This document shows, piece by piece, positions 3,369-7,372 of a stretch of 64,000 nucleotides of DNA (positions within the stretch are counted from its first letter, which is position 1; each line of letters starts with the position of its first letter). The position numbers and the translations under genes are program-made. Below the pieces are notes generated by a model, which had not been told where the DNA came from, ran no database searches, and saw only the letters and a list, made by a program, of their open reading frames with translations. Origin of the DNA: a virus; the IMG/VR virus record IMGVR_UViG_3300008448_008955, positions 1-64,000 of that record. One strand, written 5' to 3'.

Positions 3369-4160
3369 ATGATGAGTTTTGTATTTGATTTAATTTCTGA
3401 TTTACATGTTGACACATGGGACGAAAACAATTGGGAAGGTATTGCTACCAGCCCAGTTTGTGTGGTGGCAGGAGATGTCAGCAAAGATCGAGCCCAGGTA
3501 GTTGACACACTGCGACGACTGGGTAAAACCTACCAAGCGGTGTTCTACATTGATGGCAACGACGAACATCAGGCCTATCTTGGTAACCTGGGCTACAGTT
3601 ATGCTGATCTAGTTGGCAAAATTAACAAAATACCCAATCTAGTCTATCTACAAGACAACGTGGTTGTGATAGATGGTGTGGCCATTATTGGTACCAATGG
3701 TTGGTGGGGATTTGATTTTGATCTAAGTGTAGACGGTCTTGCTAGTGCAGAATGGTACAAAGAAAAATTTTCTCTCAGTAACGAAGCCATCAAGGCTATC
3801 AGCAAAATGGCTACCAACGATGCTATGTATCTAATCAATTCAGTAAAACGCCTACAAACTCATTTGGACGTAAACAAAATTGTAATAGTAACTCACACTG
3901 TGCCTAACGCTGCATTGATCTCGCATGACATTGATCTAGAAGGCAAGCTCAAGTTTAATACCATGGGCAACCGCTACATGGATCAGGTGCTAGATGCAGA
4001 CACTGAAAACAAAATACATACCTGGTGCTTTGGACACTATCATGGCTCAGTGGATCAGCATAAAAATAATATTCGCTATGTAAACAACTGTAGAGGCAGG
4101 GGTGATACACCTTATAAAAAATATGTGTACCACCCTTTGCGTGTGGTTATAGATTATTGA
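3369..4160 (+). CDS. Calcineurin-like metallophosphoesterase
   Basis: Predicted 263 aa. The motif order of the metallophosphatase superfamily is complete: D-x-H near the N-terminus (ISDLHVD, residues 9-15), GD (VVAGDVS), GNDEH (a variant of GNH[DE]), a metal-binding His in THTVPN, and GHYHGSVD (GHxH) near the C-terminus. These residues make a two-metal site that hydrolyses phosphomonoesters or diesters. Close relatives act on nucleotides, nucleic acid ends or proteins; sequence alone does not say which. It overlaps the stop of the opposing ClpS gene by 7 bases. Probably a cytoplasmic enzyme of the host-takeover set. Confidence 0.85.
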   Translation: MMSFVFDLISDLHVDTWDENNWEGIATSPVCVVAGDVSKDRAQVVDTLRRLGKTYQAVFYIDGNDEHQAYLGNLGYSYADLVGKINKIPNLVYLQDNVVVIDGVAIIGTNGWWGFDFDLSVDGLASAEWYKEKFSLSNEAIKAISKMATNDAMYLINSVKRLQTHLDVNKIVIVTHTVPNAALISHDIDLEGKLKFNTMGNRYMDQVLDADTENKIHTWCFGHYHGSVDQHKNNIRYVNNCRGRGDTPYKKYVYHPLRVVIDY

Positions 4161-4465
4161 ACAGTGTCTGGTTCAAGTTTGATCTGCAATGGATAACTTT
4201 GAGCTCGGGCACTTACAGTAACTTCAATACCTTTTTGTTCAGCAATTTCGTAGGGCAACACCGCAACCACAGCCGAACCTGCTTCATGAATATCTTCTGT
4301 GATGGTAAACGCAGTTTCTTCAGTGTAGTCAAAAAACTCCATTAAACTTTCAATCACAAACTCCATGGTGGTCTGATTGTCGTTGAGATAGATCACCTTG
4401 TACATCGGCGGTTCTTTGATTGATGTATTTGTTTTGACTCGTGATCTGATTTCAGATTGCGACAT
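4154..4465 (-). CDS. clpS: ClpS-like ATP-dependent Clp protease adaptor
   Basis: Predicted 103 aa. I chose the ATG at 4465 because AAGGAGA lies just upstream; an in-frame extension to 4606 would run back through the neighbouring gene. The core matches ClpS: YKVIYLNDNQTTMEFVI, then ITEDIHEAGSAVV and a final SYPLQIKLEP. The Asp in LNDN and the His in IHEAG match the N-degron pocket residues. ClpS delivers N-end-rule substrates to ClpA in the host. The phage also encodes ClpX (6185-7372), but no ClpA or ClpP is in the window, so this protein presumably works with host ClpAP. Its start overlaps the end of the upstream oxygenase gene by 14 bases. Confidence 0.88.
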   Translation of the reverse strand: MSQSEIRSRVKTNTSIKEPPMYKVIYLNDNQTTMEFVIESLMEFFDYTEETAFTITEDIHEAGSAVVAVLPYEIAEQKGIEVTVSARAQSYPLQIKLEPDTVQ

Positions 4466-5141
4466 TTTTTTCTCCTTTGTTGTAATGTGCATGAATTTGC
4501 ACAAGGTCTTTGTTGATAAACTTGTTGTATTTGTGCCAGTTTCCTGAGCAATGTATCTGTGATGCCAAGAAGAATACACCACTACCAGCAGTATAACGGA
4601 AAACACCGTCGGGTGTCAACCAGTCCAAAAAGTGTTGCTGATGAACTGGGTCAATTGAATGTTCAAGATCTTCAGTTTCGCTGATGTTGCAGATCTTGGT
4701 TGCAGGATTGGGCGCAGGTGTAGCCCAGTCGTACAGCATTTGACTCAGGTGGTCGTTGCTGTTGGCTTCTTCTTTGCACAGTATCACATTGAATTCGGGA
4801 TGCGTATCCAATGCAATAATAACAGTGTAGGTAGGAACATCAAAGTGTTTGCAGTAATCGTCCACATGTGTGCTGTGGGGCAGACTTTGACGCTGATAGT
4901 TGGCCCATATGTTTTCACACCCAGGCAAAAAGTGATGGGTGACTCTTTGTACAATATCCCAGCACTGTTGACTTTTTGAAGGTTCAATCAACAGTCTATG
5001 ATCAATTATGGGTCCTTGGTCCACCATGAGATGATCATCGGTAGTAGCATTCACGTACTTTTCTGTAGAGAATGTGTTGTAGTATTGTTTGAATAATTCA
5101 ATCTCATCTGCAGAAATGAGATTGTGTTCGATTTGAGCCAT
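4452..5141 (-). CDS. Putative 2OG-Fe(II) oxygenase-like protein
   Basis: Predicted 229 aa, ATG at 5141 with TTTAGGA upstream. The segment PHSTHVDDYCKH gives an H-x-D pair typical of the iron-binding facial triad. A later HCSGNWHKYNK stretch could supply the distal His and the basic residue for 2-oxoglutarate. A long loop lies between them. Such oxygenases are common cargo of T4-like aquatic phages and hydroxylate proteins, nucleic acids or small molecules. The call is from motif spacing, not a full alignment. It sits between Hsp20 and ClpS; a 9-bp hairpin separates it from Hsp20. Confidence 0.5.
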   Translation of the reverse strand: MAQIEHNLISADEIELFKQYYNTFSTEKYVNATTDDHLMVDQGPIIDHRLLIEPSKSQQCWDIVQRVTHHFLPGCENIWANYQRQSLPHSTHVDDYCKHFDVPTYTVIIALDTHPEFNVILCKEEANSNDHLSQMLYDWATPAPNPATKICNISETEDLEHSIDPVHQQHFLDWLTPDGVFRYTAGSGVFFLASQIHCSGNWHKYNKFINKDLVQIHAHYNKGEKNVAI

Positions 5142-5153
5142 GGTGTTCCTAAA

Positions 5154-5175
5154 CAGTGGCAGTTTCCTGCCACTG
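5154..5175 (-). terminator. Perfect 9-bp hairpin between hsp20 and oxygenase gene
   Basis: On the minus strand CAGTGGCAG-GAAA-CTGCCACTG forms a GC-rich stem closed by a GAAA tetraloop, followed only by TTTAGG. The U-run is short, so it may be a weak terminator, an mRNA 3' end protector for hsp20 or a processing site. A GTAAATA box (5176-5182) lies at its 5' side, suggesting a fresh transcription start for the downstream gene. Confidence 0.5.
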
Positions 5176-5182
5176 TATTTAC
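5176..5182 (-). promoter_or_regulatory. Late-promoter-like GTAAATA upstream of 5141 gene
   Basis: The GTAAATA box is on the coding strand, 34 bases before the ATG at 5141 and adjacent to the hairpin at 5154-5175. It matches the (C/G)TAAATA boxes placed before virion genes in this window. Confidence 0.35.
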
Positions 5183-5189
5183 TCTGACA

Positions 5190-5648
5190 TCAAGCAGTGT
5201 AGCTGATAGCAATGGTCTTTGGCTTGGCGTCTTCAGGAACTTCACGTGTTAGGTGTATGTTCAAGATGCCCAGTTCAAGATGCGCATTGCTGATCTCCAC
5301 GTGGTCAGCTAATTGAAATTCTCTACGAAAACTTCTTTCACTGATGCCTTTGTGCAGATATTTTGCAGTGGCGTCTTCATTGTCCACAGTTTCGCGGCTG
5401 TGTTTGCCTTCGATGATCAAGACTTTTTTGTCCTTGGTCACTGAAAGATTGTCGTGCCCAAAGCCGGCTACGGCCACGCTGATCATGTACTCGTCATCAT
5501 TGATTTGTACAATATCGTAGGGTGGGTAGTTGGTGTTGCCTTGTTGCGCATTCAATCGCATTAGTTCATCAAACATTGAATCAAAACCGATACCAAATTT
5601 GTGAATTGCGGGAATGTCGAAAGAACGAAGGGTGAGAGTTTTTGTCAT
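5190..5648 (-). CDS. Hsp20 small heat-shock protein (IbpA-like)
   Basis: Predicted 152 aa, ATG at 5648 with AAAGGAG 7 bases upstream. The N-terminus resembles IbpA (RSFDIPAIHKFGIGFDSMFDEL). The alpha-crystallin domain spans about residues 40-140: YPPYDIVQINDDEYMISVAV, VLIIEGKH, and ERSFRREFQLADHVEISNAH followed by LGILNIHLTREVPE. Small heat-shock proteins hold unfolding proteins and form oligomers. In phages they are thought to protect proteins during rapid virion synthesis. The promoter region carries a sigma70 site whose -10 is also a perfect T4 late box (5714-5744), so the gene could be made early and late. Confidence 0.93.
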   Translation of the reverse strand: MTKTLTLRSFDIPAIHKFGIGFDSMFDELMRLNAQQGNTNYPPYDIVQINDDEYMISVAVAGFGHDNLSVTKDKKVLIIEGKHSRETVDNEDATAKYLHKGISERSFRREFQLADHVEISNAHLELGILNIHLTREVPEDAKPKTIAISYTA

Positions 5649-5713
5649 TTGTTTTCTCCTTTATTAAGCAAGATGACTTTTGAAATGTAGCCCGACCATC
5701 GGCACTACAAACA

Positions 5714-5744
5714 TATTTATACAGGAAATCTCAACTCTTGTCAA
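5714..5744 (-). promoter_or_regulatory. Dual promoter of hsp20: sigma70 TTGACA-N17-TATAAA fused to late box TATAAATA
   Basis: On the minus strand TTGACA (5739-5744) is followed after exactly 17 bases by TATAAA (5716-5721). The same bases form TATAAATA (5714-5721), the exact T4 late-promoter consensus. The leader to the ATG is about 60 bases and begins with a stem-loop (arms GTAGTGCCGA and TCGGGCTAC). The -35 overlaps the 3' end of the upstream small gene. Confidence 0.75.
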
Positions 5745-5959
5745 GATTTTTCGATATTTTTTATTTCGTAATCGCATGCAACCCAGGTCATAGCAAAAAG
5801 AGTAAAATGCTCTGGGTGATTTAACCCAAGTCGATATTTTAAGCCTTTGGCAACTTTGGTTGTGTAAGGTATCTTGTAGCGGTTGGCCCAGGCGTTAACT
5901 GTATCTTTGAGACTATCGAAACTGTCCATGCTTGTGACAATATCAAACTCAATGTACAT
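5741..5959 (-). CDS. Small hypothetical protein downstream of bS21
   Basis: Predicted 72 aa. Its ATG (5959) overlaps the bS21 stop as TAATG, so translation is coupled. I do not recognise a family. Residues such as WANRYKIPYTTK and RLGLNHPEHFTLFAMTW suggest a compact alpha/beta fold, possibly nucleic-acid binding, but this is guesswork. Its 3' end carries the -35 of the hsp20 promoter. Confidence 0.55.
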   Translation of the reverse strand: MYIEFDIVTSMDSFDSLKDTVNAWANRYKIPYTTKVAKGLKYRLGLNHPEHFTLFAMTWVACDYEIKNIEKS

Positions 5960-6183
5960 TAGAACATTTTTTTGGGCAGTTCTTGTTCACGCAGTTTCTT
6001 ACGCCAGCGTTGTTTGGCTGCTGACGCTCTGAGTTTGCGTTGAGTTGTGGGTTTGATATAGTGTTCACGATCTCGCAGATCATTTAGCATGCCCGAAGCA
6101 GCAATTTTCTTTTTGAATTTACGCAAGGCACGATCTACGTTGCCGTCTTGTACCAGTACTGATCTTCCGTGTAGTTTTTCCAT
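5959..6183 (-). CDS. rpsU: Ribosomal protein bS21 homologue
   Basis: Predicted 74 aa, about the family length. It shows the bS21 core near residues 17-33 (VDRALRKFKKKIAASGM), the motif L-R-D-R-E-H-Y, then K-P-T-x-R-K-L-R and a very basic C-terminus (KQRWRKKLREQE). In bacteria bS21 sits near the anti-Shine-Dalgarno end of 16S rRNA in the 30S subunit and aids initiation. Phage bS21 is a known trait of large aquatic phages and is thought to bias ribosomes toward phage mRNAs. The start lies one base after the clpX stop, so the two are co-expressed. Confidence 0.93.
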   Translation of the reverse strand: MEKLHGRSVLVQDGNVDRALRKFKKKIAASGMLNDLRDREHYIKPTTQRKLRASAAKQRWRKKLREQELPKKMF

Positions 6184-6184
6184 G

Positions 6185-7372
6185 TCAGAGTTCTTTTGGA
6201 CTATTTACCAAAGTTTTGTCAATATCTACGTGTTTAATGCCGTCTGAACGATAACGGCTCAGATTGTACATGTGCGGCAGTAACACACGTTCAAGTTCTG
6301 AGTGCAGACCACGAGCACCTGTTTTGTTTTTAATGGTACGTTCAGCAATGAGATCCAGACTGTCCTTGGTAAACTCTAGGTCAACATCATCCTGCTTGAA
6401 CAACCACTGATACTGACTCACGTAGTTGTGCTTGACTTCTTGCAGAATACGCACAAGATCTGCTTTATCCAGTTCTTGTAGAGCCACCCAAGTAGGAAAG
6501 CGCCCAACAAATTCAGGAATAAGACCAAATCTCACAAGATCATCGGGGGTCGTTTGATCTAGTTGACCCTTGACATCGTCTGTTATTTTAGCCCCAAATC
6601 CAATACTGGTGCCTTTGATGCGATTTTTTACAATGTTGTCTAGTCCCACAAAGGCACCGCCGGCAATGAACAAGATGTTGGTGGTGTCGATTTCCACAGT
6701 TTCTCCTGTGGGATGTTTGCGTCCGCCTTGTGGAACAATACGACATTTGGTACCTTCTACCAACTTCAGCAAGGCCTGCTGGACACCTTCGCCTGACACA
6801 TCGCGAGTGATACTGGCGCTTTCGCTTTTGCGACTGATCTTGTCAATCTCGTCCACAAACACAATACCACGCTGTGTTTTTTCAAGGTCAAATCCCGAAG
6901 CGGCATACAGCCTTGAGATCAAACTTTCCACATCATCGCCCACATAGCCTGCTTCGGTCAGGCTGGTAGCATCAGCAATCACAAAAGGCACATCCAGGTA
7001 ACGTGCTACTGTGCGGGCCAGCAAGGTCTTGCCTGATCCTGTGGGTCCAAGCATAAGAATGTTGGCTTTTTCAATTTCGGTATTCTTGTCTTGATTGCCA
7101 ATGCGTTTATAGTGATTGGCAATGGCCACGCTGAGTACCATCTTGGCCGCATCCTGACCGATCACATACTGGTCTAGATGGCGACGAATTTCTCTAGGAT
7201 CAAGGCTGGGACGAGTTTCAGTATTTGTTACCGGCTGGTCTACTAGTAAATTTTGACAGAGGTCCACGCACTCATTACAAATTGCAACGCTTTCGCCTAC
7301 AATTAGTTTAGTCACGTTGTCTTTGTGTTTGCCGCAAAAACTGCAGGTATCAATAGATTTATTTTCGCTCAT
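6185..7372 (-). CDS. clpX: ClpX AAA+ protease/unfoldase subunit
   Basis: Predicted 395 aa, slightly shorter than E. coli ClpX (424). The N-terminal zinc domain has Cys10, 13, 32 and 35 in two C-x2-C pairs. Walker A is GPTGSGKT (about 109-116), Walker B is VFVDEID (about 171-177) and the pore loop is GYVG (142-145). The loop GTSIGFG keeps IGF (about 257-259), the tripeptide that docks ClpX onto ClpP. A working ring that recruits host ClpP is therefore plausible, redirecting host proteolysis. The start overlaps the upstream stop as ATGA. bS21 follows after one base. Confidence 0.96.
   Translation of the reverse strand: MSENKSIDTCSFCGKHKDNVTKLIVGESVAICNECVDLCQNLLVDQPVTNTETRPSLDPREIRRHLDQYVIGQDAAKMVLSVAIANHYKRIGNQDKNTEIEKANILMLGPTGSGKTLLARTVARYLDVPFVIADATSLTEAGYVGDDVESLISRLYAASGFDLEKTQRGIVFVDEIDKISRKSESASITRDVSGEGVQQALLKLVEGTKCRIVPQGGRKHPTGETVEIDTTNILFIAGGAFVGLDNIVKNRIKGTSIGFGAKITDDVKGQLDQTTPDDLVRFGLIPEFVGRFPTWVALQELDKADLVRILQEVKHNYVSQYQWLFKQDDVDLEFTKDSLDLIAERTIKNKTGARGLHSELERVLLPHMYNLSRYRSDGIKHVDIDKTLVNSPKEL

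Follow-up and report, generated by a model that had tools for sequence, protein, structure and literature searches.

Genes and features at the hsp20 locus

The virus record comprises 96,470 bases, of which the first 64,000 make up the stretch analyzed here, hereafter called the window. The hsp20 gene belongs to the core genes of T4-like cyanophages, in which TATAAAT late promoters have been scanned for, and the passages of these studies that contain hsp20 or late-promoter terms mention no leader element (PMC3037559; PMC9004378). The role of the phage Hsp20 protein is not settled, even though its gene is part of this core. The UvsX protein of the record has its nearest relative in Sinorhizobium phage Phosso (68.7%), and PA5oct-like Pseudomonas phages rank highest for the tail sheath protein (36.7% over 88%); its identity to the proteins of Phosso and Atu_ph07 is higher over a shorter stretch.

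In the window, hsp20 is located near the genes for ClpS, ribosomal protein S21 and ClpX (Table 1), and together they form a proteostasis cluster spanning positions 4154-7372. The clpS gene also adjoins hsp20 in Pseudomonas phage Callisto, and the two genes are not far apart in Phosso.

Table 1. Features of the hsp20 locus, in window coordinates, with the basis for each assignment.
Feature	Position	Strand	Basis
ClpS	4154-4465		
hsp20 coding sequence, 152 aa	5190-5648	-	PF00011 (E 3e-16); phrog_432
Shine-Dalgarno (SD) sequence AAGGAG, predicted to pair with the anti-SD sequence (hairpin 2)	5656-5661	-	Fold; alignment
Anti-SD sequence CUUGCUU with the ROSE motif U(U/C)GCU	5666-5672	-	Conservation; fold
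GUCAU, complement of AUGAC (start codon and codon 2, 5648-5644)	5673-5677	-	Fold
Hairpin 1: 6 pairs, bulged G (5703), 4 pairs, 3-nt loop	5686-5709	-	Fold; covariation; null test
T4-type late box TATAAATA, overlapping the -10 hexamer	5714-5721	-	Sequence; TAAATA enrichment upstream of ORFs
-10 hexamer TATAAA, 17-nt spacer from the -35 hexamer	5716-5721	-	Sequence
-35 hexamer TTGACA	5739-5744	-	Sequence; -35 conservation in the clade
Ribosomal protein S21	5959-6183		
ClpX	6185-7372		

An overlapping sigma70/late promoter upstream of hsp20

In T4-type phages, late promoters are served by the sigma factor gp55 and carry the late box TATAAATA. The original prediction placed a TTGACA-N17-TATAAA promoter over a perfect late box upstream of hsp20, and both sites are present on the minus strand (5744-5714, TTGACA-N17-TATAAATA), with the sigma70 hexamers matching at 11 of 12 positions and a spacer within 16-18 nt. 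If the spacing of T4 promoters applies here, as we assume, transcription would start near position 5708, which gives a leader of about 60 nt before the ATG at 5648. Taken within the window alone, the sites are close to chance: TATAAATA occurs once against 1.29 expected and is thus not over-represented, and TTGACA-N16-18-TATAAW occurs once against 0.11 expected, with at least one occurrence in 10 of 100 shuffles. It is the comparison with relatives that makes the promoter convincing, since TAAATA is conserved at a nearly fixed position upstream of hsp20.

We asked how TAAATA is distributed in the record as a whole. Out of 39 occurrences, 23 are located at most 80 nt upstream of an ORF and in the sense direction, corresponding to 23 of 115 ORFs. 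This share, 59%, compares with at most 25% for 14 other permutations of the same letters. Genes headed by TAAATA include virion genes such as those for the tail sheath, the tail tube and a head-tail adaptor (as identified with PHROGs), with the motif at promoter distance as in T4-type late promoters, as well as the gene for ribosomal protein S21. These patterns support the view that TAAATA serves this phage as its late box. A gene for a gp55-like late sigma factor (phrog_12791, phrog_234) was identified in 16 of 18 records searched; the two without it are the 96-kb record of the window and a 212-kb relative, and a separate search of the 127-kb record of L004, which encodes an identical Hsp20, also gave no match. 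Because the records that lack the gene are fragments, its absence from those phages is not established. Upstream of several ORFs (window 48768 and 50728, record 86510, minus strand) there are TATAMT-like boxes with ACTTGTA after them, and these possibly represent a further promoter class of this phage.

We compared the regions upstream of hsp20 in relatives, of which 80 out of 321 were kept, yielding 54 distinct leaders as defined by the last 110 nt. The TAAATA late core is found at a near-constant position in nearly all of the 54, and ATAAATA in all but four, three of which carry TATACTAAATA while L036 is boxless. The overlap takes two geometries, either TTGACA-N17-TATAAATA or TATAATAAATA with a perfect -10 hexamer displaced by three bases. 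A total of 51 distinct hsp20 boxes were compared with 73 other TAAATA boxes upstream of ORFs in the same 80 loci, the latter set being drawn from ORFs located 150 nt or more from the end. The sigma70 score was 9.78 of 12 for the hsp20 boxes and 7.12 for the other late boxes, while dnaK boxes of related viruses scored 7.71. Hexamers with at least five of six matches were recorded at the -35 position for 26/51 hsp20 boxes and 1/73 other boxes, and at the -10 position for 49/51 and 18/73, respectively, most of the latter 18 being located before clpS. The sigma70 hexamers, 16-18 nt apart, are thus conserved beyond the late box. Promoters located about 50 nt upstream of clpS in relatives (L008, L010, L015, L029 and others) read TATAAT-N-TAAATA, which is another overlap of a -10 hexamer with the late core.

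A simpler explanation is that the promoter serves a single phase of infection, being either a late box that happens to resemble a -10 hexamer or a sigma70 promoter with a chance TAAATA. It would fit the letters shared by TATAAATA and TATAAT and the near-chance counts in the window. Also, the hsp20 promoter regions of 24 cultured phages were classified as late-type in 12, TATAAT-type in four, unclear in five and element-less in three, so that single-phase use probably exists in the family. However, a pure late box does not explain why the -35 hexamer follows the quality of the -10 hexamer: at least five of six matches are seen in all 16 distinct promoters of the TATAAATA type (14 of them perfect) as compared to 4/23 of the TATAMTAAATA type, with four other promoters belonging to neither. 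Nor does a pure sigma70 promoter explain the retention of TAAATA in nearly all relatives. For the locus studied here we consider single-phase use unlikely, although it deserves to be taken seriously.

The counts support the view that -35 and -10 quality compensate for each other across hsp20 promoters, and since they are drawn from related sequences they describe a pattern rather than independent trials. When the two geometries are mapped onto a tree built from 57 Hsp20 proteins of the clade, they interchange no fewer than 10 times, with six of the changes being forced by well-supported branches; this is a gene tree, from which the history of the promoter may differ. The scores of the hsp20 boxes, the compensation and the swaps together suggest that both readings have been selected for hsp20, and it is a fair inference that the promoter is used both early and late. 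The original prediction of a dual reading is in this sense partly supported by sequence comparison, with transcription in both phases being predicted from it. Its further suggestion, that the chaperone is kept on throughout infection, appears doubtful because translation may be held back despite ongoing transcription. The overlapping promoter offers a conserved case in which to test whether two sigma factors read the same gene.

A conserved leader with two hairpins

The original prediction also described a leader of about 60 bases with a bulged stem, and the stem was recovered as 10 pairs with one bulged G (5709-5686). What it overlooked is the leader as an element in its own right, which by comparison of sequences is both more conserved and more widespread than the promoter. 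Hairpin 1 starts within a few nucleotides of the putative RNA start. In the predicted hairpin 2, one G of the anti-SD sequence is left unpaired, and the majority of hsp20 leaders in the window clade retain the GUCAU motif.

The hsp20 leaders of cultured phages have quite different sequences and the same anatomy as the leader in the window, as observed in Methylophilales phage Melnitz-3, Pelagibacter phages HTVC008M and HTVC115P, cyanophages, Phosso and Pseudomonas phage Callisto. The leader is thus found before hsp20 in cyanophages and in phages of SAR11, OM43, rhizobia and Pseudomonas. A structural parse identified hairpin 1 in 21 of 24 named phages, the same 21 that carry UYGC(U/G) near the start codon; the element was not found in Vibrio phage IBT_VpB-34, S-TIM5 and SCTP-2. 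In P-HM2 (L249) and Sf-FP1 (L254), the annotated hsp20 start is located upstream, in or before the leader, and the conserved SD sequence and ATG further on suggest that these starts are misplaced.

Null counts were based on 78 distinct leaders, from which duplicates and the pattern-selected loci L084-L202 were left out. The bulged-G hairpin was present in 74 of these leaders, as compared to a mean of 4.8 and a maximum of 12 in shuffled sequences, while the other ORF leaders in the record have it in 3 of 113 cases. Likewise, U[UC]GCU followed by the SD sequence (AGGAG) was found in 68/78 distinct leaders and 0/113 other ORF leaders. One pelagic group (e.g., L227, L229) is without UYGCU, and L228 is without hairpin 1.

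Since an alignment made with MAFFT (A1) misplaced the 3' arm of hairpin 1, a covariation model was seeded from eight leaders of equal geometry (A3) and extended to 73 matches (A4). In this alignment, which is fitted to the model structure and hence leans toward it, each of the 10 pairs of hairpin 1 varies on both sides. Compensatory cells number 197, as compared to 49.3 for shuffled sequences, and the covariation score is 0.445, as compared to 0.138 for shuffled sequences and 0.03-0.10 for slid controls. In the eight-sequence seed alignment alone, 6 of 16 pairs have double changes. The comparison thus shows hairpin 1 to be a real RNA structure and the anti-SD sequence to be conserved. No covariation was detected for hairpin 2 in the 73-match alignment, where the pairs are near-invariant and changes are one-sided (e.g., U-G to C-G); this can be attributed to the SD side being fixed by its function. 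The pairing of hairpin 2 in the cell is inferred from the predicted fold.

Within hairpin 1, the bulged G is invariant in position while the length of the stem varies, the C-G pairs above it are near-invariant, and the remaining stem and the loop (UUCG, GCAA and others) are variable. An inverted repeat, TGTAG..CTACA, adjoins the promoter, and the dyad could in principle be a DNA operator for a repressor bound beside it. The fixed position of a single bulged G in a stem of varying length and the occurrence of the element without a late box and with an anti-SD motif downstream make such an operator very improbable.

The leader precedes additional chaperone genes

A model, R1, was run on 678,993 bases from 52 sources, which comprised 49 of the 80 loci together with the window and the remainder of its record. 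It gave 55 matches, of which 50 are hsp20 leaders, one in each of 50 hsp20-bearing sources. The remaining matches are a leader of dnaK (L036), a pair of elements upstream of groES behind a 14-aa ORF (L030, L051) and two weak matches on the reverse strand. A second model, R2, was applied to 34 whole records (8.3 Mb), part of which had contributed to its training, and gave 47 matches at E<=0.01 in 32 records, with one to three in each. In G013, G014 and G015, matches are located downstream of dnaK. Translation of the sequences following 11 further R2 matches revealed two Hsp20-like ORFs and nine short ORFs of 85-101 aa. The short ORFs, which are encoded by the large relatives, are mostly alike, often with MFT.DA.IDAVQTGKKQFV (L352-L360; records G001-G008, G010), and a 91-aa ORF has no convincing match in Pfam, PHROG or NCBIfam. 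Before the short ORF, L352-L358 carry an inverted repeat, TTGC-N-GCAA, just upstream of TAAATA, which is often followed by TACAAT.

The exact hairpin pattern was found in at least 119 viral stretches (L084-L202), which were selected by this pattern and therefore left out of the covariation analysis and null counts. Nearly all are located upstream of hsp20; among the stretches listed, DnaK is encoded downstream in two (L092, L176), and in L125 the hairpin is located about 140 nt upstream of a groES-groEL operon. No match to the exact pattern was found in bacterial and archaeal genomes. Three of seven bacterial Hsp20 relatives (L363, L364, L367), from Kordiimonadales and another proteobacterial MAG, have a bulged-G hairpin as judged by eye and AUUGCUC near GGAGG, and their leaders were recognized neither by Rfam at gathering score nor by R2.

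At least 588 DnaK relatives were detected in viral contigs, and the best 80 gave 69 distinct leaders. Within this set, TAAATA was present in all 69, the anti-SD sequence was UYGC(U/G) in 45, UUACU in 23 and neither in one, and a relaxed hairpin 1 was identified in 32 as compared to 4.6 in shuffles. Many of these leaders (L265, L266, L277, L290 and others) contain an additional small hairpin, GGGCA..GCCC, between hairpin 1 and the anti-SD sequence. Many dnaK loci also have a second copy of the leader after dnaK and before an Hsp20 gene, the identity of which was verified as PF00011 in L263 and L298, and in L331 a copy precedes groES, as suggested by sequence likeness. Most copies between dnaK and hsp20 have no adjoining late box, which fits an RNA function that is independent of the promoter. 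The occurrence of copies before dnaK, hsp20 and groES, with those between genes mostly free of a late box, ties the element to chaperone genes rather than to one promoter.

These copies also bear on the suggestion that hairpin 1 only shields the 5' end of a late mRNA from decay and that UYGCU acts as a translation enhancer. The start of hairpin 1 so near to the putative RNA start would agree with this, as would the proposal that hairpin I of short ROSE-like thermometers has a stabilizing role (PMC3669281). However, both hairpins are retained jointly between dnaK and hsp20, mostly where there is no late box, and the other genes of the record generally lack such a hairpin, which makes protection of the 5' end an improbable sole function.

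Predicted folding and proposed regulation of translation

The predicted accessibility of the SD sequence in 27 native leaders increases from a mean of 0.20 to a mean of 0.30 across 5-45 C. The values are 0.34-0.42 when the upstream sequence is shuffled and 0.58-0.78 when UYGCU is complemented, as compared to 0.34-0.46, with a wide spread, for 22 other GGAG leaders of the record. The predicted melting across 5-45 C is almost nil, and it is likewise nil for the E. coli ibpA and ibpB leaders included as controls; since the computation fails on these, it decides nothing about thermosensing.

Our preferred interpretation, to which we assign a probability of about 0.7, is that hsp20 in these T4-like phages is transcribed from an overlapping sigma70/late promoter that drives a leader of the ROSE kind, with translation being held until hairpin 2 opens. 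Comparison across relatives shows the overlap and conservation of the promoter and the association of the leader with chaperone genes; the subsequent steps are a model. Host RNA polymerase would read the sigma70-type promoter early in infection and a gp55-programmed polymerase would read the overlapping late box later, from nearly the same start, so that hsp20 mRNA would be made through much of infection. The mRNA would carry the stable bulged-G hairpin at the 5' end of its leader of about 60 nt, followed by a weak hairpin 2, with U(U/C)GCU paired to the SD sequence and GUCAU to the start codon, thereby holding translation down. Hairpin 2 may open as the temperature rises, or through titration of a repressor by unfolded protein, and the response to temperature is suggested by analogy.

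The latter possibility can be taken one step further: hairpin 1 may be a candidate site for an autogenous repressor, Hsp20 itself or another protein, in which case the leader would sense aggregation and not temperature directly. E. coli IbpA provides a precedent for an autogenous repressor. The bulged G never varies and the C-G pairs above it hardly do, unlike the remaining stem and the loop, which looks like the pattern of a recognition site; moreover, the element is rarely seen other than before chaperone genes and a single type of short ORF. However, the same bulged hairpin is part of ROSE_2, and hairpin 1 may therefore be a folding aid. We regard a repressor site as less likely than the preferred interpretation, although it is a serious rival.

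More tentatively, and with somewhat less than even confidence, we suggest that T4-like and jumbo phages have a heat-shock regulon consisting of hsp20, dnaK, groES(L) and the short ORF, in which translation would be switched by temperature or aggregated protein through one ROSE-like leader, with overlapping sigma70/late promoters ensuring a supply of mRNA throughout infection. The conserved leader suggests that phages hold back the translation of chaperones until stress. This can be approached with ordinary reporters in cultured cyanophages and in phages of SAR11 and OM43, and with the leader as a marker, chaperone regulons of phages could be located in metagenomes.

Comparison with known promoters and RNA thermometers

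As in T4-type phages, the late core is located before virion genes, and a gp55-like factor is encoded by most of the records searched, the fragment that holds the window not being among them. The promoters studied here differ in that the late core of hsp20 overlaps a sigma70-like promoter and in that the usual box is NTAAATA rather than the full TATAAATA.

The ROSE family has always been tied to small heat shock genes (PMC4166951). Its short members are 61-62 nt long and have two hairpins, of which hairpin I is stable, while U(U/C)GCU in hairpin II pairs with the SD sequence and hairpin II suffices for thermoregulation (PMC3669281). We compared the leaders to the Rfam models. ROSE_2 gave 100 bits on E. 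coli ibpA, with the same bulged-G hairpin and UCUCGCU..AGGAG, and our model R2 matched the leader of E. coli ibpB (25.4 bits, E 2e-4). ROSE_3 gave 34.1 bits for the Melnitz-3 leader and 33.6 bits for L263 (threshold 43, E about 0.001) and a value below threshold for C48C1 (E 0.16); below-threshold ROSE_3 matches were confined to L205, L263 and L208. The leader in the window has no match to a Rfam ROSE model even at E 10, and no match at gathering score was found in the window, in nine sources or in the further phage sources scanned. The best Rfam match in the window, freshwater-2, was rejected, as it scored 20.7 bits (cut-off 49.9) and aligned to the promoter and SD region.

The leader precedes a small heat shock gene, has two hairpins, within the range of two to four expected of a ROSE element, has an imperfect U(U/C)GCU/SD pairing and starts with a bulged-G hairpin, and lacks a match to a Rfam ROSE model at gathering score. 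The lack of such a match bars it from membership in the Rfam family but not from working like ROSE, and on anatomical grounds we call it ROSE-like without counting it as a Rfam ROSE member. Shared with ROSE (ROSE_2, RF01832; ROSE_3, RF02523; Pseudomonas ibpA, PMC3669281) are the leader of about 60 nt before a small heat shock gene, the two hairpins, the bulged G in the first hairpin (ROSE_2 consensus) and U(U/C)GCU opposite the SD sequence with an unpaired G. The leaders of the type found in the window differ in being phage-borne, with Rfam scores below threshold or no match and a putative thermal role, in also heading dnaK, groES and a short ORF of no assigned function, in being driven by late or overlapping sigma70/late promoters and, in the window clade, in having a sequence complementary to the start codon as well. 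If they function as proposed, ROSE-type leaders would be extended from small heat shock genes to dnaK.

A literature search covering part of PMC found no ROSE leader in a phage, and the blyA thermometer of SPbeta has been described as no more than the second one found in the genome of a phage (PMC11182007). The thermometers of lambda cIII and SPbeta blyA are, like the leaders studied here, translation-control leaders in phages, but the parts of that article that deal with them neither liken them to ROSE nor place them before chaperone genes (PMC11182007). If the proposed mode of action is correct, the leaders upstream of phage hsp20, dnaK and groES would enlarge the small set of published phage RNA thermometers by a widespread class.
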